Assembly (NCBI GenBank): GCA_019358975.1
Contig: JAHHIL010000003.1
Span: 1-64,000, forward strand
Reading direction: 5' to 3'
DNA length: 64,000 nt
From: Trichocoleus desertorum ATA4-8-CV12
Lineage (GTDB): Bacteria; Cyanobacteriota; Cyanobacteriia; FACHB-46
Below are positions 2,551 to 20,866 of the stretch, one piece after another. Each line of letters opens with the position of its first letter. Position 1 is the first letter of the stretch. A model generated the notes under the pieces. That model made no database searches, was not told the origin of the DNA, and worked only from the letters and a program-made list of their open reading frames with translations. A program made the translations under genes and the position numbers.

Positions 2551-3402
2551 ATGCCAATCCCTGCTACCTGGATGATTCGGAATATTCGCTTCGATTGGGG
2601 GCGGCGTACTTACCTAATGGGCGTACTGAATGTAACGCCAGATAGCTTTAGTGATGGGGGCCAATTTGACTCTTTAGCGGCAGCCTTAGAGCAAGCGAAG
2701 CGTTTGGTAGCAGCAGGGGTAGACATTGTAGATGTTGGTGGTCAGTCTACGCGACCCCAAGCCGCTGAGATTGATGTAGAAACAGAACTGGAGCGGGTAA
2801 TTCCAGTTATAGAGGCGGTGCGATCGCAGCTGGATATGCCCATTTCGGTAGATACAACCAGAGCGGTTGTTGCTAAAGCAGCTGTAGAGGCTGGAGCTGA
2901 CATTGTCAACGATATTTCGGGCGCAACATTTGATCCAGACATGCTACCGACTGTCGCAGCTCTGCAAGTGCCCCTGATCTTGATGCACATTCGAGGCACA
3001 CCCCAGACGATGCAGCGATTAACCGATTACGAAGACTTGGTTGGAGAGATTCAAGCATTTCTGCAAGATCGCATAGAGGCAGCGATCGCGGTGGGGATTG
3101 ACCCTGCTCACCTCATGATCGATCCAGGAATTGGCTTTGCCAAAACTTACTCGCAAAACTTAGAGCTGCTGCGCCGAGTCTCAGAATTTCGAGCCTTAGG
3201 GTGCCCTGTTTTAGTTGGGCCTTCCCGCAAAAGTTTTATTGGGCATATCCTCAACCAACCAGATCCACAACAACGAGTTTGGGGCACAGCGGCTGCTTGT
3301 TGTGCGGCGATCGCTGGCGGCGCTGACTTGCTTCGGGTGCATGATGCCCAGGAACTACGAGAGGTTTGCCTGGTAGCGGATGCCATTTGGCGGCAAGCTT
3401 AG
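2551..3402 (+). CDS. folP: Dihydropteroate synthase
   Basis: This enzyme condenses p-aminobenzoate with 6-hydroxymethyl-7,8-dihydropterin pyrophosphate in folate synthesis. The pterin-binding TIM barrel is complete: MGVLNVTPDSFSDGG near the N-terminus, DVGGQSTRP, ISVDTTRA, VNDISG, LMHIRGTP, IDPGIGFAK and GPSRKSFIG. The open frame extends upstream to a GTG at 2509. I prefer the ATG at 2551 (MPIPATW), about 30 codons before the LNVTPDSF motif; the ATG at 2572 is also possible. No clear ribosome binding site decides among them. It is divergent from the response regulator and convergent with the SPFH gene. Confidence 0.93.
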   Translation: MPIPATWMIRNIRFDWGRRTYLMGVLNVTPDSFSDGGQFDSLAAALEQAKRLVAAGVDIVDVGGQSTRPQAAEIDVETELERVIPVIEAVRSQLDMPISVDTTRAVVAKAAVEAGADIVNDISGATFDPDMLPTVAALQVPLILMHIRGTPQTMQRLTDYEDLVGEIQAFLQDRIEAAIAVGIDPAHLMIDPGIGFAKTYSQNLELLRRVSEFRALGCPVLVGPSRKSFIGHILNQPDPQQRVWGTAAACCAAIAGGADLLRVHDAQELREVCLVADAIWRQA

Positions 3403-3423
3403 CTCAAGGGCCAAAAAACTCAG

Positions 3424-4254
3424 TTAGCCGGGATAAGAGCCATTGCCAGGACCGCTCCCACCTCCTCCATCCATGCCATCTGGAGTAGTTGGTGTTTCCA
3501 TCAAGTTCTCCAAGGCTTCGCTCATCGCCTTCGGGTCCATAAAGATGACTTTGGAGTTAGGGCTTTCACTAATCTTTTCATTGGCTTCCACATACCGCTG
3601 AGCAATCAGGTACTTCAGCACCTCACTCGTATTGGGTTGAGCTTGGAGGGCTTTAGCGATCAAGCGCATCGATTCGACAGTACCTTCTGCTTCAGAAATA
3701 GAGGCACGTTTGCGAATTTCCGCCGCCCGCTGCTGGGCCATTGATTCTAAGAGAGAGGCAGGTGGCGAAATGTTTTGCACCTCAACCCGCGTCACTTTCA
3801 CGCCCCAGGCTGCGGTCGCTTCATCCAGCTGATGCAAGAGGGTTTGGTTAATCTCAGAGCGAGATGAATAGGTTTCTTCCACCTTCATTTGGCCCAGGGC
3901 TGAGCGTAGAGTCGTGAGCACGAGGTTTTTGATGCCTAACTCCACATCTTCCACCGAGTAAAAAGCTCGCTCTAGTTCTAGAATCCGCCAGTAGACTACC
4001 GCGTCTGCTTTCAGACACACGTTATCTTTCGTAATCGCTTCTTGGGGTTCCACGTCCAACACTTGCTCCCGCACCGTGTCTTCCAGAACGATCGAGTCCA
4101 CAAAAGGCACGATAAAGTTCAATCCGGGAACGAGCTTGCGGTGGTAGCGGCCCAACCGTTCTACCAGCGCTTCATTACCTTGGTTGATGATTTTTACAGA
4201 GCCAACGGTATAACCGACAATGACTAAGGCTAAGGCGGCAAGAATAGACTCCAT
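3424..4254 (-). CDS. SPFH/Band 7 membrane protein (paraslipin/stomatin type)
   Basis: A 276-residue protein. One hydrophobic N-terminal segment (residues 2-20) is followed by an SPFH domain: INQGNEALVERLGRYHRKL, PGLNFIVPFVD and REQVLDVEPQEAIT. An Ala/Glu-rich helical stretch follows (QRAAEIRKRASISEAEG). The C-terminus is a Gly/Pro-rich tail after METPTTPDG. Proteins of this family form membrane-associated oligomers involved in membrane organisation or protease control. It lies 87 bases from an NfeD-like gene on the same strand, the classic stomatin/NfeD pairing. The exact role here is not known. Confidence 0.9.
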   Translation of the reverse strand: MESILAALALVIVGYTVGSVKIINQGNEALVERLGRYHRKLVPGLNFIVPFVDSIVLEDTVREQVLDVEPQEAITKDNVCLKADAVVYWRILELERAFYSVEDVELGIKNLVLTTLRSALGQMKVEETYSSRSEINQTLLHQLDEATAAWGVKVTRVEVQNISPPASLLESMAQQRAAEIRKRASISEAEGTVESMRLIAKALQAQPNTSEVLKYLIAQRYVEANEKISESPNSKVIFMDPKAMSEALENLMETPTTPDGMDGGGGSGPGNGSYPG

Positions 4255-4341
4255 AAGTTCATCAACTCCCGATGAGTGGGTTAGGCAGAAACGCAGAGCT
4301 AGAATTACTCAGACTACAACTTTTCAGTTTAGTTGTTAGTT

Positions 4342-4800
4342 TCATTCGCTTGAGGGCAGTCTGTCCGAAATATTCAGGTCTGGGTAATCAGTCGGGATAA
4401 CAATCAGGGTGTTGCGTTGACGCCCAACCACATAGACTCGTTGCTGGGGTGCGATCGCCACATCTGGTAACTGGCAGCAAGCCTGCCACAGCGTCCCTTC
4501 ATAAATAACGCGCCCCACCCCACCCGCCGGAATGGCGGTTCTCGCCCAAGCTTCGGTATCATGCTTGAGAGTTTTGGCTTCTTTCGGCATCAGCGATCGC
4601 ATGAAATTAGCTAGGGTGAATGACAGCACACCCCATAAAATCATTTGGGCGAGGGGAGAAGGAATGCTGAGGGCGGCGATCGCAGTAATAATGGCGGCTA
4701 TGCCTAAAGCTGGAATACTAGGCTCCGGAATTAGTGACCCCAAGGCGAGGCAGAGCATACCGCCAATGAGCCACAAAGCATGAGCAGGTAGAGTGACCAC
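4342..4800 (-). CDS. NfeD-like membrane protein
   Basis: A 152-residue protein. Its N-terminal half is two or three hydrophobic helices (residues 5-70), and its C-terminal half is a small beta-rich domain: PAGGVGRVIYEGTLWQACC through YVVGRQRNTLIVIP. The motif GGVGRVIYEGTLW is typical of the OB-fold NfeD domain. NfeD proteins are usually encoded beside SPFH proteins and this one is upstream of such a gene on the same strand, so the two products probably form one complex in the membrane. The start codon is a GTG at 4800 with no obvious ribosome binding site, so the exact N-terminus is uncertain. Confidence 0.85.
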   Translation of the reverse strand: MVTLPAHALWLIGGMLCLALGSLIPEPSIPALGIAAIITAIAALSIPSPLAQMILWGVLSFTLANFMRSLMPKEAKTLKHDTEAWARTAIPAGGVGRVIYEGTLWQACCQLPDVAIAPQQRVYVVGRQRNTLIVIPTDYPDLNISDRLPSSE

Positions 4801-4997
4801 CAGTAGTGACCCGTAAACATAAGGCAGGATATTAGCTTTGCAATGTGACTAGGTGGAATGATGGGGCGGTGAGCCGCAGAGCTACAAGCTACCCTGCACG
4901 ATTATTCAGTTGCTAGATCCTACTTCCAGTGTACAAACTGGTTTCTAATTACACCGAATTGTCATAAGGGAGTTTTGCCACCACTTTGAACTATCCG

Positions 4998-6833
4998 CTA
5001 TCCCCTAGATGCTTTGCGCCGAGAGCCGAGTTGCCACGCAGAACTACCAGAGGCGCTGACGGTATAGAGCACTGAGTTACAGGCGACAAAATAGTAAGCC
5101 AAGGTAGAAACTCGCTGACCGACTTCTGTATGTAACTGCTGAGGCGGAAGAGATGCGACTTTCATCCAAGGCGCTAGACTGGCGGGCAATTGAGTGTTCA
5201 AGCGCAGAGGAATTTGAGCCGTGGAGAGCGATTGAGCATAGCCAGAGGTCAAAAACGGCTGATACAACTTAGCTTCTGGCGTGAGCTGTTTGATGAAAGC
5301 TAGACTCACGCCTTGCAGAAGTTGCCGAAGATGCTCTGTCTCTGGGCCTTGTCGCTCTCGAACTAGCGTGCTTTGGGTAATCAGATCACTAAAATTCGCT
5401 GGATCACCGACGCTTAAATGCGTACCGCCGATCGCCGTTACCAAATATTTAGGCTGAGGCAACTGGGCGAACGGTTGTAATTGGTGGGTTAAGGTAGGGG
5501 TCAGATTGTCTTCTGTCCCAGTCAGGATCAGAGTTGGGGTCGCCACTCGCTTCAATCCATCGGGGCCAAACAGACGACCAACGACTGGATTGAGGGCGAT
5601 CGCTTGAGCCACTCTGGGGTCACGTAGTTGGACGCGACGTTCTGGTAAATCAATCGCAGTACATTGCAACCAATCAGCAGGAGCTAAGCCCAAGGGAATG
5701 CGCTCTTGGCAAAACTGACGCAACCCTTCCACGTTCAGTTCGGCACCTGCTAAGGCTAGGGCTGTATAGCCACCCAAAGAGTGCCCCATAACACTGACTT
5801 GATTGGTATTAAGTTTTCCTTGCAAAGCCCCAGGTTTTTGATTGCGCTGAGCGAGTTGATCGAGCAAAAAGCTGACATCCCGTGGCCGTTCCACAAACTC
5901 TGCCGCTGAAAGCAAAGTATCGCGGGCTAGACCCGGTGAAGGGCTGGCGAGCCAAGCCAGATTGCTACCTGGATGCTCAATGGCGGCTACCGTCAGACCA
6001 TAGGAAGCGAGATGACGCGCTACATAAGCGAGAAAAGTCCGATTTGCCCCAAATCCGTGGGAAATCACAACTAAGGGCCCTGTAGGGCGATCGCTCCAGT
6101 AGAGATCAACAGGCAGGGTGCGCTGGCGTTGGCGATCGCGCAGCACCAAAGTTTTTTGCTGGACTTCCTGAGAACCAGACATCGTGGGGTCAAAAGTAGC
6201 CTTAAACGCTGGGCTCTCCACCTTCAACTCTCGCTCTAGAATGGGGCTGAGCGCTTGGCTTTCCCAATAGGAAAAGTTGAGTTGTGAGGCGATCGCAGCA
6301 ATCGAGCTGACGTCGATCGTGACAGTCTCTTGGGGAAATGCTCTCAAGATCGCCAGTACACTTAAACCGTTTGCCTGACGAGCGGCCAGCGTCACGGCGG
6401 CTTGCAGTTGTTCTACTGTACTGCCTGGAATCGCCACCCCTAAGGCCGCTAGCATTCTTTGTCCGGCGGGAGAGCGCAACAGCTCATTCACCACCTGATC
6501 GCCAATGTTGGGGTCAAGTTCTAGGCGATCAGCGAGGGCTTTGCGAACATCGGGGGTTAGAACTAGCGCATAAGGTTTGAGCGCAGGAGACAATTCTCCA
6601 GTTTTGGCAAATGCTTCTAAATCCGCGATCGCGATCGTCTGCTGAAATGGCCCCAAGCGAAACGTCAGACGCTCTGCCGCTTGACCAGGCATGGCAAAAC
6701 TACAACTAAGTGCGACGACCGCGCCACACAAAAGCCCTTGCATCCATTTTCTAGAACGTTGCACCAAGACTGTTTGGATGGTTGGGGCTGGGGAGTTAGT
6801 AATCCCCTGTTGAAGCCAGAAAGACTGTGGCAT
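4998..6833 (-). CDS. Secreted alpha/beta hydrolase with DUF1400 domain
   Basis: A 611-residue protein with a signal-peptide-like segment near residues 30-53 (MQGLLCGAVVALSC...GQAAE); translation may start at that Met rather than at residue 1. A DUF1400-like region follows at about 54-200 (ERLTFRLGPF, LAAIASQLNFS). The alpha/beta hydrolase core has the oxyanion-region motif VISHGFGANRTF and the nucleophile elbow GHSLGGYTAL. Further on are LTGTEDNLTP, probably the acid-strand region, and GGTHLSVGD, the catalytic His. This architecture is common in cyanobacteria and substrates are uncharacterised. Esterase or lipase activity on an exported substrate is an inference. Confidence 0.85.
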   Translation of the reverse strand: MPQSFWLQQGITNSPAPTIQTVLVQRSRKWMQGLLCGAVVALSCSFAMPGQAAERLTFRLGPFQQTIAIADLEAFAKTGELSPALKPYALVLTPDVRKALADRLELDPNIGDQVVNELLRSPAGQRMLAALGVAIPGSTVEQLQAAVTLAARQANGLSVLAILRAFPQETVTIDVSSIAAIASQLNFSYWESQALSPILERELKVESPAFKATFDPTMSGSQEVQQKTLVLRDRQRQRTLPVDLYWSDRPTGPLVVISHGFGANRTFLAYVARHLASYGLTVAAIEHPGSNLAWLASPSPGLARDTLLSAAEFVERPRDVSFLLDQLAQRNQKPGALQGKLNTNQVSVMGHSLGGYTALALAGAELNVEGLRQFCQERIPLGLAPADWLQCTAIDLPERRVQLRDPRVAQAIALNPVVGRLFGPDGLKRVATPTLILTGTEDNLTPTLTHQLQPFAQLPQPKYLVTAIGGTHLSVGDPANFSDLITQSTLVRERQGPETEHLRQLLQGVSLAFIKQLTPEAKLYQPFLTSGYAQSLSTAQIPLRLNTQLPASLAPWMKVASLPPQQLHTEVGQRVSTLAYYFVACNSVLYTVSASGSSAWQLGSRRKASRG

Positions 6834-16382: not shown

Positions 16383-16511
16383 CGGTTTTCAGCCCATCGT
16401 TCCTGGAGATCAACAGACTGCCTCAGATTGAGTGGGGAGTTTATGCAGTGTCAATTCCGTTACTCCACACTCAATGCTTGAAGCATCGATTGAACTTCTA
16501 CTTCAAATAGT

Positions 16512-17390
16512 TTAGAAGTCTTCTAGAAGCGAACTGAGTCGGCTCAGAATTGGATCAGGTTCATGAGATGAAGCTGCTGCGGCGGCTTGGGGGACTGGCT
16601 CCTTAAAGCTGAGGATAGGGGCAACGGCGATGGGGGCAGCAGTCATGGCAGGCTGAGCTGATGATGGTTCTGGCGGAGCTTCAGCCACGCTAGACGCAGG
16701 AACTGGAACTGTCAGGGCTGGTTGATTTTGGTTGAACTGACGTTGGTTGAGTTGAGATTGCAGGTCGGCAAATTGTTGAGCAATTTTAGTCTCGATCACT
16801 TCAACTTGGGTCGTCAAGTGGATGAGCTGACTAGTTAATTGATTGAGATATTCCGTCGTTGGATTGTTGGTAGGTTGTTTCCAGCTAGAGAGTTGAGTTT
16901 GAACGGTTTCTACTTGCTGCTGCAGGTTGGTGTTACTTTGCTCAACGCCTTGTAATAACTGCATAAGCTCTGATAAGGAGTCTGTGGGGTCTACCGCAGA
17001 AGTAGATTGCAGCGCCGAAATTTCAGCTTGCAATTCTGAGAAACCGCGATCGCCCTTGGTATGCAGCCCCTCTAATTGCTGAGTAGTGTGCACTAGTTGT
17101 TGGTTTAGCTCATCTAAGCGCTGAGATTGACTAGCGAGTAATTTAGCCTCTAGTTGGGCTACTTGCTGCTGAATGGGTGCTAGAACTGCTTCTAAGCCAG
17201 TATTAGAGTTGGTAAGTTGAGCAGATTCGGGGTCTAGTAAAGCTTGGTGTAGAGCTTGCTTGCAGAGGTCGCTGAAACTGTCGTACTGCGCCTCGGTCAA
17301 CGCTTGCTCGATCGCCGCCAGCAAACTTTGATCAGCAGCTTCCGGAGTAAACGTAATAGATTTATTCGTCTTTTTGGCGGGGGTGGGCAT
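16512..17390 (-). CDS. ParR-like partner: N-terminal ribbon-helix-helix plus coiled coil
   Basis: A 292-residue protein that I do not recognise by name. Residues 8-52 fit a ribbon-helix-helix pattern: a short strand (KSITFTPEA), a helix (DQSLLAAIEQALTEA) and a second helix (SFSDLCKQALHQALL). Residues 65-225 are Gln/Leu-rich heptads, predicted coiled coil. The rest is a Pro/Ala linker ending in a short amphipathic tail, DPILSRLSSLLEDF. The start codon is 6 bases after the stop of the actin-like ATPase gene, so the two are translationally coupled. The order ATPase then DNA-binding RHH protein matches plasmid parM-parR operons. ParR-like function is an inference from fold and position only. Confidence 0.7.
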   Translation of the reverse strand: MPTPAKKTNKSITFTPEAADQSLLAAIEQALTEAQYDSFSDLCKQALHQALLDPESAQLTNSNTGLEAVLAPIQQQVAQLEAKLLASQSQRLDELNQQLVHTTQQLEGLHTKGDRGFSELQAEISALQSTSAVDPTDSLSELMQLLQGVEQSNTNLQQQVETVQTQLSSWKQPTNNPTTEYLNQLTSQLIHLTTQVEVIETKIAQQFADLQSQLNQRQFNQNQPALTVPVPASSVAEAPPEPSSAQPAMTAAPIAVAPILSFKEPVPQAAAAASSHEPDPILSRLSSLLEDF

Positions 17391-17395
17391 GGCAG

Positions 17396-18487
17396 TCAGA
17401 CCTGGGTGAGTTGAGGGTTAACAGTCGCCAGTTGAGCGCGGCCATAGAGGTATTGGCCTAGTGCATTCGCCTTGCGCGACGGTTGAGCCAAGTGAATCCG
17501 CAGTTGGGCTTCCTCTAGCAAGGGTTGAAAATCTGGCCAGAAAAATTCGCCTCCCCCACCACTGACAATCACATCTGTAACCCGCTCTGGAAGCCAAGCG
17601 ATTAAGCGGTTCGACAATTCACGAGCAAAGCTCTTACGCAAGCTAGGCAGAATGGTATCTAGATCAGTGGGACGAGTGGCACCACGAGGTCGATAAAACC
17701 GTTGCCCCTGGGGCCGATTCACCGCTTCGATCAACGACAGAGATTGACTATCTGCCCCTTGAATTTGACTCGCCACTTGGTCGTAAAACTGGTTCATGGC
17801 AAAAGGTTCGCTCTTAGAGGCTCCCCGCGCAAACCGGAAGCGATCGACCATGAGAAAGTCGGTAGTTTGGTGACCAATATCCACGATCGCGACTGACAGA
17901 TTTGGCAAGTCAGGACTCTGAGCTTCTTTTTCTTGGGCTTCGCACCAAATTAAGCTGCCATACCCTTCTGGCATCACCCAAACTTGCTGAATGTTGACCG
18001 CGATCGCTTCTCCTCGGTAAGACAAAACATGGGGCGATCGCAGCAAGCCAATCAGTTGCTCTTTCTCGCGATCGAACTGCTCTTGGGAGTGATAGGGCAA
18101 GCCTAGAACAATGGCTAAGTCGCCTGAGAGATTGAAATATCCAATACAAGCTAAAACCTTTACTAGCGCATCTTCGACCTTAGATTGGCCCACGCCTAAG
18201 TTGGCTCCAAAGTCTGCGGCTAATTGACCGATCGCGTAACCTCGGCCTTGATGCTCTAGCCAAATATCTAACAGCGCATCCGTAGAGCGGGACTCAAACC
18301 CGCCCCGACGCACCTGATCAACGCTGAGATGCGCTACATTGGCAGCAATCAGCACGACATCATCGGGATAGCGGCTGACACAGGCTTTAGTGGAAGTTCG
18401 CCCTAGGTCAATACTTAAAACCGACGTGTGGTTGGACTGACCATTGAGTGAAGTGGTCAGTGAATTAAAGGGTTGTCTGGCAGTCAT
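17396..18487 (-). CDS. Actin-like ATPase (ParM/StbA type), chromosomal
   Basis: The product is 363 residues from the ATG at 18487. The frame also offers a GTG at 18499, but the purine run GAGAGG sits better for the ATG. Actin-fold motifs are in order: phosphate-1 LSIDLGRTSTKACV (near residue 25-40), phosphate-2 VAIVDIGHQTTDFLMV and the adenosine loop VIVSGGGGEFFWP. A ParM-type segment DKFRFARGA-like (FRFARGASKSEP) and the C-terminal ANALGQYLYG follow. ParM-type proteins polymerise with ATP and push DNA or other cargo apart. The gene is first in a two-gene operon with the RHH/coiled-coil protein. No plasmid or phage genes are near, so the cargo may not be a plasmid. Confidence 0.82.
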   Translation of the reverse strand: MTARQPFNSLTTSLNGQSNHTSVLSIDLGRTSTKACVSRYPDDVVLIAANVAHLSVDQVRRGGFESRSTDALLDIWLEHQGRGYAIGQLAADFGANLGVGQSKVEDALVKVLACIGYFNLSGDLAIVLGLPYHSQEQFDREKEQLIGLLRSPHVLSYRGEAIAVNIQQVWVMPEGYGSLIWCEAQEKEAQSPDLPNLSVAIVDIGHQTTDFLMVDRFRFARGASKSEPFAMNQFYDQVASQIQGADSQSLSLIEAVNRPQGQRFYRPRGATRPTDLDTILPSLRKSFARELSNRLIAWLPERVTDVIVSGGGGEFFWPDFQPLLEEAQLRIHLAQPSRKANALGQYLYGRAQLATVNPQLTQV

Positions 18488-18979
18488 CGAATTATTCACC
18501 TCTCGTTTAAATTCTTAACTGTGCATGCCCTGGATTCCACTCCTAGGAACTGATTCGAGTACCTGGGAGGGATGGTTGAATGCCGAAAACTCGGTAAAGT
18601 TTTGAGGTAGGTGTTTAGGAAATTGCTCCTAGATGAAGGTTTGAATTTGGCTGAACTGAGTGCTGGGTAGGTCTAGTTCTAATGAGCCTAGAGCGATCGC
18701 TTTTTTCTCATTTCAGCTTCATAGTACAAAAGTACTATATCTCATGTTTATGAGGAGACAACCCTCTATAGTTGCTCCAATCCTGATAATTAAGTTAAAT
18801 TTGATTAAGAATCTGTTCTAACCGCTCCTGAGCAAGTTCCTGCAAAACTGAGCTTGTTAGATATGAAACGAAGGGAAATTTATTTATCGACCCTTGATTC
18901 AAAAACTTATTCTGCGGGTGAGATGACTCGCTCACGCCGAATCTAGCTGTTGTGCTCCGTATATAGAGGCCACTAACTT
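18488..18979. other. Divergent intergenic region between the parM-like gene and ftsH
   Basis: About 490 bases without a supported gene. It holds the LexA-like box at 18723-18736 and a TCCTAGGA palindrome near 18540. CCTAG recurs near 18628 and 18687, and two GGTAGGT copies lie near 18605 and 18666. In plasmid par loci the centromere lies in this position, upstream of parM, but no regular iteron array is visible here. AT-rich sequence from 18780 to 18900 probably contains the ftsH promoter. Confidence 0.6.
18723..18736. promoter_or_regulatory. LexA-type operator candidate
   Basis: AGTACAAAAGTACT matches every position of the cyanobacterial LexA consensus RGTACNNNDGTWCB. It extends to a 7-base inverted repeat, ATAGTAC-AAAA-GTACTAT (18721-18738). 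It lies almost midway between the divergent starts of the parM-like gene (18487) and ftsH (18980). Binding has not been shown. Confidence 0.55.
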
Positions 18980-20866
18980 ATGAAATTGTCTTGGAAAACA
19001 GTGCTGCTGTGGGCACTGCCCGCTGTGGTCATCGGTTTCTTCTTTTGGCAAGGCGCTTTTGCTCCCACTCCAGTAGATATGAGCAGCAATGCGGCGAGTA
19101 CCCGCATGACCTACGGTCGCTTTCTGGAATATTTAGACACAGGTCGAGTCACAAGTGTTGACCTCTATGAAGGAGGACGGACAGCAATTGTAGAAGCGGT
19201 TGATCCAGAATTAGACAACCGGGTGCAGCGGCTGAGAGTAGACCTACCTGGTAACGCTCCAGAACTGATTTCCCGCCTTAGAAACGACAAAATCAGTTTT
19301 GATGTGCATCCGCCTCGCAATGATGGTGCCATCTGGGGCCTATTGGGAAACCTAGTCTTCCCCATCTTGCTCATCGCTGGACTCTTCTTCTTGTTCCGTC
19401 GCTCTAACAACGTGCCAGGTGGTCCGGGCCAAGCCATGAACTTTGGCAAGTCTCGGGCTCGTTTCCAAATGGAAGCTAAAACTGGCGTCATGTTCGATGA
19501 CGTAGCAGGCGTGGAAGAAGCCAAGGAAGAACTCCAAGAAGTAGTAACCTTCCTGAAAAAGCCAGAGCGCTTCACGGCAGTTGGAGCCCGCATTCCTAAG
19601 GGTGTACTGCTAGTTGGCCCTCCGGGAACTGGTAAAACCCTATTGGCTAAAGCGATCGCGGGGGAAGCGGGAGTGCCATTCTTCAGCATCTCTGGTTCTG
19701 AGTTCGTTGAAATGTTTGTCGGTGTGGGTGCGTCTCGCGTCCGTGACCTGTTCAAGAAAGCGAAAGAAAATGCGCCTTGCATCATCTTTATCGATGAAAT
19801 TGACGCAGTGGGTCGGCAACGGGGCGCAGGCATCGGCGGCGGCAACGATGAGCGGGAGCAAACCCTCAACCAGTTGCTCACTGAGATGGATGGCTTTGAA
19901 GGCAACACTGGCATCATCATCATCGCGGCCACCAACCGTCCTGATGTCTTAGACTCGGCGCTGTTGCGTCCCGGTCGCTTTGATCGTCAAGTCACGGTAG
20001 ATGCTCCCGACATCAAAGGGCGCGTAGAAATTCTGCAAGTGCATGCCCGCAACAAGAAGTTATCTGACGAAGTTTCGATCGATTTGGTGGCTCGTCGGAC
20101 TCCTGGCTTCACAGGCGCAGACTTGGCAAACTTACTGAATGAGGCTGCTATCCTAACCGCGCGTCGCCGTAAAGAAGCGATCACCATGCTAGAAATCGAT
20201 GCCGCAGTCGATCGCGTGGTGGCTGGGATGGAAGGCACTCCTCTGGTCGATAGCAAGAGCAAGCGCTTGATTGCTTATCACGAAATTGGTCATGCGGTGA
20301 TTGGCACCTTGGTCAAGGCTCATGACCCTGTGCAAAAGGTTACTTTGATCCCCCGTGGACAAGCTCAGGGCTTAACCTGGTTCACCCCTAGCGAAGAGCA
20401 AGGCTTGATTTCTAAAGCGCAACTGATGGCTCGCATCATGGGTGCTCTAGGCGGTCGGGCGGCTGAGGAAGTGATCTTCGGTGACTCTGAGATAACCACT
20501 GGAGCGGGCAATGACCTGCAACAAGTCAGCGGCATGGCGCGACAAATGGTGACTCGGTTCGGAATGTCTGACTTAGGGCCTTTGTGCCTCGAAAGCCAAT
20601 CGGGCGAAGTGTTCTTGGGCCGCGACTTGATGACTCGCTCGGAGTTCTCCGACGAAATTTCGTCTCGGATCGATGGTCAAGTCCGCTCGATTGTGGAGCA
20701 CTGCTACGATGAGTCTCGCCGCATCATCCGCGAGAACCGCACTGTAGTCGATCGCCTAGTGGATCTCTTAATCGAGAAAGAAACCATTGACGGCGACGAG
20801 TTCCGTCAGATTGTGGCCGAGTACACCGTCGTACCTGAAAAAGAACAGTACGTACCTCAGCTCTAA
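18980..20866 (+). CDS. ftsH: ATP-dependent zinc metalloprotease FtsH (thylakoid FtsH2/Slr0228 type)
   Basis: A 628-residue membrane AAA protease. There is an N-terminal TM ([18 protein letters not shown]), a lumenal/periplasmic domain at 30-115 and a second TM ([19 protein letters not shown]). The AAA domain has Walker A GPPGTGKT at 213-220, Walker [12 protein letters not shown] and the SRH region [13 protein letters not shown]. The zinc protease motif HEIGH lies near residue 435. The N-terminal sequence resembles Synechocystis FtsH2, which removes photodamaged D1 from photosystem II in a hetero-oligomer with FtsH3. The paralogue assignment is by recall of the sequence. A terminator follows at 20895. 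Confidence 0.96.

Follow-up and report, generated by a model that had tools for sequence, protein, structure and literature searches.

The segment between positions 16512 and 18487 of a 64,000-nucleotide stretch of Trichocoleus desertorum DNA (the window) is almost certainly the fcmB-fcmC operon, in which a cassette for plasmid partition, now chromosomal, has been recruited to control cell shape. The locus belongs to an already described family, which the initial annotation of this DNA missed, since FcmBC was reported in mSphere in 2025 and the pair found here is the orthologue of that Nostoc punctiforme system (PMC12645912). The first protein reaches 646.4 bits against the NCBIfam equivalog NF052678 FcmB (cut-off 300) and the second 134.8 bits against the equivalog NF052682 FcmC (cut-off 90). 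Moreover, FcmB matches Pfam ALP_N over its cut-off (55.8 bits) and the solved chain 9rmi_G with an E of 7.4e-156, the name of this chain, CorM, being taken from the PDB label of 9rmi.

The work that described fcmB and fcmC in N. punctiforme revealed that FcmB builds membrane-bound filaments encircling the cell, and that FcmC is required for this placement, as in its absence the filaments are cytoplasmic (PMC12645912). Rod shape depends on both genes, and the interaction of their products was positive in a two-hybrid test (PMC12645912). The FcmB family was derived in the same work from plasmid-partition actins, not from MreB (PMC12645912), in agreement with the ParM/ParR ancestry that had been proposed from the letters of the window. 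By orthology, we infer that FcmBC would have the same function in T. desertorum. In this family, machinery that once sorted plasmid DNA has plainly become a cytoskeleton that shapes the cell; the interest of the locus itself is limited by its known function, and that of the side findings reported below is modest.

Organization of the locus

Both genes lie on the minus strand with fcmB directly upstream of fcmC, an order that the initial annotation gave correctly, although the gap between them is of 5 bases and not 6. The fcmB frame is open from either an ATG at 18487 or a GTG at 18499 (363 or 367 aa, respectively) and its stop ends at 17396; the ATG is the start common to orthologues, since M5 is an invariant column in an alignment of 18 of them. 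The fcmC frame extends from an ATG at 17390 to 16512 and encodes 292 aa. The features of the region are the following:

17396..18487, minus strand: fcmB (= corM), ParM-type bacterial actin (NCBIfam NF052678, PDB 9rmi, Pfam ALP_N)
18386..18409, minus strand: FcmB phosphate-1 motif DLGRTSTK, invariant in 18 orthologues
17858..17881, minus strand: FcmB phosphate-2 motif DIGHQTTD, invariant in 18 orthologues except H210 (>=90%)
17549..17560, minus strand: FcmB adenosine motif GGGG, invariant in 18 orthologues
16512..17390, minus strand: fcmC, ParR-like partner of 292 aa (NCBIfam NF052682)
17238..17366, minus strand: RHH-like N-terminal domain of FcmC, residues 9-51 (AlphaFold model, structural matches, strand-to-FSDLCK spacing)
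16728..17231, minus strand: predicted coiled-coil region of FcmC, residues 54-221, of lineage-specific length (AlphaFold helices, orthologue lengths)
16557..16727, minus strand: low-confidence Pro/Ala-rich linker of FcmC, residues 222-278 (pLDDT <50 over most of 233-276)
16515..16556, minus strand: conserved C-terminal tail of FcmC, DPILSRLSSLLEDF, residues 279-292 (conservation in 48 orthologues)
16427..16475, no strand assigned: inverted repeat of 14 nt located 3' of fcmC, a weak candidate for a terminator (arms 93% complementary and 21 nt apart, no T-run scored)

No Rfam RNA was found at the fcmB-fcmC locus. The flanking genes, gltX (576 bits) and ftsH (794 bits), place the pair among chromosomal housekeeping genes, as the earlier description of a chromosomal cassette implied, and set it apart from the plasmid carriage of ParMRC. 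The source genome is a draft assembly of 90 contigs, and the chromosomal placement of the pair is judged from these two flanks. A clear copy of mreB is present in the same genome.

Conservation of the ATPase and of the gene pair

The actin phosphate and adenosine motifs, noted from the start as complete, correspond to D31-L-G-R-T-S-T-K38, V206-D-I-G-x-Q-T-T-D214 and G314-G-G-G317, and are conserved in 18 orthologues. Within 242 genomes of the class, FcmB was over the cut-off in 64, with a total of 66 copies, and FcmC was adjacent on the same strand at 64 of these copies, the two exceptions being the copy of genome G023 (different contig) and the second copy of genome G115. All FcmC matches compared with the FcmB list fall in genomes with FcmB, in a comparison that excluded the weakest FcmC rows, which were partial coiled-coil matches. 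In a sample of Nostocaceae FcmB was over the cut-off in 144 of 145 genomes, and phages yielded a single weak relative, at 24% identity. The pair, whose presence in other cyanobacteria the initial annotation asked about, is thus conserved. That annotation had named as outcomes against it a partner without an RHH fold, lost ATPase residues and the absence of conserved pairing; instead, the pairing and the ATPase residues are conserved and the RHH fold, as described below, is supported though not proven.

Architecture of FcmC and a proposed mechanism

The AlphaFold model of FcmC agrees with the N-terminal RHH pattern and long coiled coil read from the sequence, and starts with a beta-alpha-alpha unit, extended at residues 9-15 and helical at 18-32 and 39-51, with a pLDDT of 82-89 per ten-residue block over residues 11-50. 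Long helices are predicted at 54-61, 63-130, 136-170 and 179-221, and after residue 221 a disordered stretch of low confidence leads to a C-terminal helix at 280-289. In a structural comparison, all five rows covering residues 5-68 belonged to RHH proteins (NikR and ParD twice each, and the ParB of pCXC100), with Z values of 2.8-4.5; in a Foldseek search both short-domain matches were also RHH proteins, at non-significant E values above 1. Moreover, the spacing from the strand to the FSDLCK motif is 25-27 in 47 of 48 sequences. A Pfam scan of FcmC matched no RHH family and returned coiled-coil matches only, all below cut-off; since no Pfam RHH model was matched, the modelled RHH fold is supported but short of proven. 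In the FcmC of Geitlerinema sp. BBD 1991-9 (L028:5069-5728), the RHH-like unit at the N-terminus is duplicated in tandem.

At the other end of the protein, we find a tail with the consensus DPLLxRLxxLLEDF, whose last residue is F in 48 of 48 orthologues; positions -14, -13 and -9 are occupied by D, P and R, respectively, in 45 of them. The three departures correspond to a frame cut short (L038), a tail shifted by one residue (L062) and a real variant (L027). Such invariant ends in proteins whose whole length varies between 113 and 318 aa indicate that the coiled coil, placed between two constant ends, has been extended in a lineage-specific manner. This arrangement, an invariant RHH-like domain and an invariant tail on a variable linker, suggests by analogy a ParR-like filament-binding tail. 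A membrane-binding amphipathic helix, in place of an FcmB-binding tail, is a less likely reading of the same residues: the tail is predicted helical and its leucines are regularly spaced, but it is acidic and its carboxy terminus is an invariant F, nearly always preceded by D. To our knowledge, an acidic tail ending in F is untypical of membrane-targeting helices. FcmC foci are indeed membrane associated (PMC12645912), but in ParR, where an N-terminal RHH domain and a three-helix cap are combined with a conserved C-tail, it is this tail, at the same place, that binds the filament, through a hydrophobic pocket of ParM (PMC5016525).

With the ParR analogy, the tail of FcmC is most likely the filament-binding end, and a mechanism can be proposed in which FcmB with ATP would form membrane-associated filaments encircling the cell, while FcmC would dimerise via its N-terminal RHH-like domain, in a presumed dimer geometry, and would be spaced by its coiled coil. 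The invariant tail would then hold the end of the FcmB filament, as the tail of ParR does with ParM, and this end-holding would place the filaments at the membrane. To approximate the complex, a chain in which FcmB and FcmC are naturally joined by stop read-through (L019) was modelled with AlphaFold; the model had a pLDDT of 51.7 and gave no usable interface.

A probable membrane rather than DNA cargo

The initial annotation had considered a filament system for a chromosomal or membrane cargo, and the membrane half of this proposal holds, in line with the localisation of FcmB in Nostoc, whereas the chromosomal half lacks support. The stretch 18500-18980 had been suggested as the place to look for iterons: at 18500-18979 the best repeat family had 3 copies against a shuffle mean of 3.7, and no direct or tandem repeats were found at 18490-18985, whereas in a positive control, the parC region of an E. 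coli plasmid, the best family reached 8 against a shuffle mean of 4.5, a value attained by 0 of 60 shuffles. Among the upstream regions of 11 orthologues two were marginal, L012 and L014, with 5 copies each (reached by 4/60 and 2/60 shuffles, respectively), and neither is significant once the number of tests is counted. On the side of the protein, the strand positions of FcmC predicted to face DNA are variable and include E and D. A chromosomal or DNA cargo for FcmBC is therefore not supported. Altogether, despite the RHH-like domain of FcmC and the descent of FcmB from plasmid-partition actins, a working ParMRC-like cassette for segregation of the chromosome or of an integrated plasmid is highly improbable, given an upstream region without iterons under a procedure that detects parC, the variable DNA-facing positions, the gltX and ftsH flanks, and fcmB and fcmC mutants that lose rod shape with normal nucleoids (PMC12645912).

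Distribution and fused paralogues

The FcmBC pair was also observed in a family identified as Gloeomargaritaceae (L063-L070, from genomes G018, G036, G062, G073, G049, G084 and G095), where at least eight genomes (f17) have FcmB over the cut-off with an adjacent FcmC. The FcmB copies of genus g17 form one clade with a support of 100/100. The FcmB of L022, on a contig titled Gloeomargaritaceae (G073:C29), falls outside this clade, so this contig may be mis-binned, although the family assignment is based on the genome as a whole. Two tandem RHH-like units were seen in the FcmC of L063-L065 and L067, all of the same family. Gloeomargaritaceae are unicellular, and Xenococcaceae, usually not filamentous, are represented by one metagenome-assembled genome titled with this name that also holds the pair (L027). 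The presence of FcmBC in Gloeomargaritaceae runs against the statement that unicellular strains lack FcmB completely (PMC12645912). A complete pair was also noticed on a contig binned as Thiomargarita, of the Pseudomonadota (L029), most likely a cyanobacterial contamination of that assembly.

Relatives of FcmB on Nostocales plasmids share 51-58% identity with the FcmB of the window and have no FcmC annotated in adjacent position. In six FcmB paralogues from Nostocales (L074, L080 and L083-L086), with frames of 514-633 aa (3145-5047 for L080), the FcmB domain is preceded by a hydrophobic helix at the N-terminus and by a stretch resembling a coiled coil, and the downstream frames listed for them showed no FcmC-like protein. 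A job of FcmC in membrane tethering would fit such paralogues, with their fused transmembrane helix and coiled coil and no FcmC. In the plasmid copy L080 the annotated start is truncated. The FcmB-like genes on two Nostocales plasmids have in common an upstream neighbour of 336 aa (L079:2540-3550 and L081:2509-3519), with an HNH-like stretch, glycine-rich hydrophobic hairpins and no Pfam match.

Both the FcmBC of Gloeomargaritaceae and the fused Nostocales paralogues go beyond what was reported in PMC12645912. A broader reading, on which our opinion is evenly divided, is that FcmBC is untied to multicellularity and represents an old module also present in unicellular Gloeomargaritaceae, that FcmC is a two-ended adaptor with an RHH-like dimer end and a ParR-like tail for the filament end, and that some Nostocales FcmB paralogues replaced FcmC by a fused transmembrane helix and coiled coil. 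With the comparative data, two points become accessible to test: by which of its ends FcmC holds the filament, and whether FcmBC predates filamentous growth.

Comparison with known systems

The closest counterpart of the locus is the FcmB-FcmC pair of N. punctiforme (Npun_R4472-R4471; PMC12645912). The two have the same gene order, a chromosomal location and no sign of a centromere, and their proteins are orthologues that exceed the curated cut-offs. The FcmC described here, of 292 aa, differs from those of Nostocales, of about 165 aa, due to a longer coiled coil and linker. With the ParM-ParR-parC systems of R1 and pB171 the pair has in common an actin-like ATPase whose gene precedes that of an RHH-like partner, and a conserved tail at the C-terminus of this partner, but FcmBC is chromosomal, lacks iterons and has a function in shape. 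As the initial annotation pointed out, the partner is unlike a standard ParR: a coiled coil takes the place of the three-helix cap, and a profile comparison of FcmC with the solved ParR (2jd3) showed no similarity. On the other hand, FcmB resembles the MreB rod system in that both form actin filaments which are bound to the membrane and determine rod shape; FcmB differs from it in its origin among plasmid-partition actins (PMC12645912).
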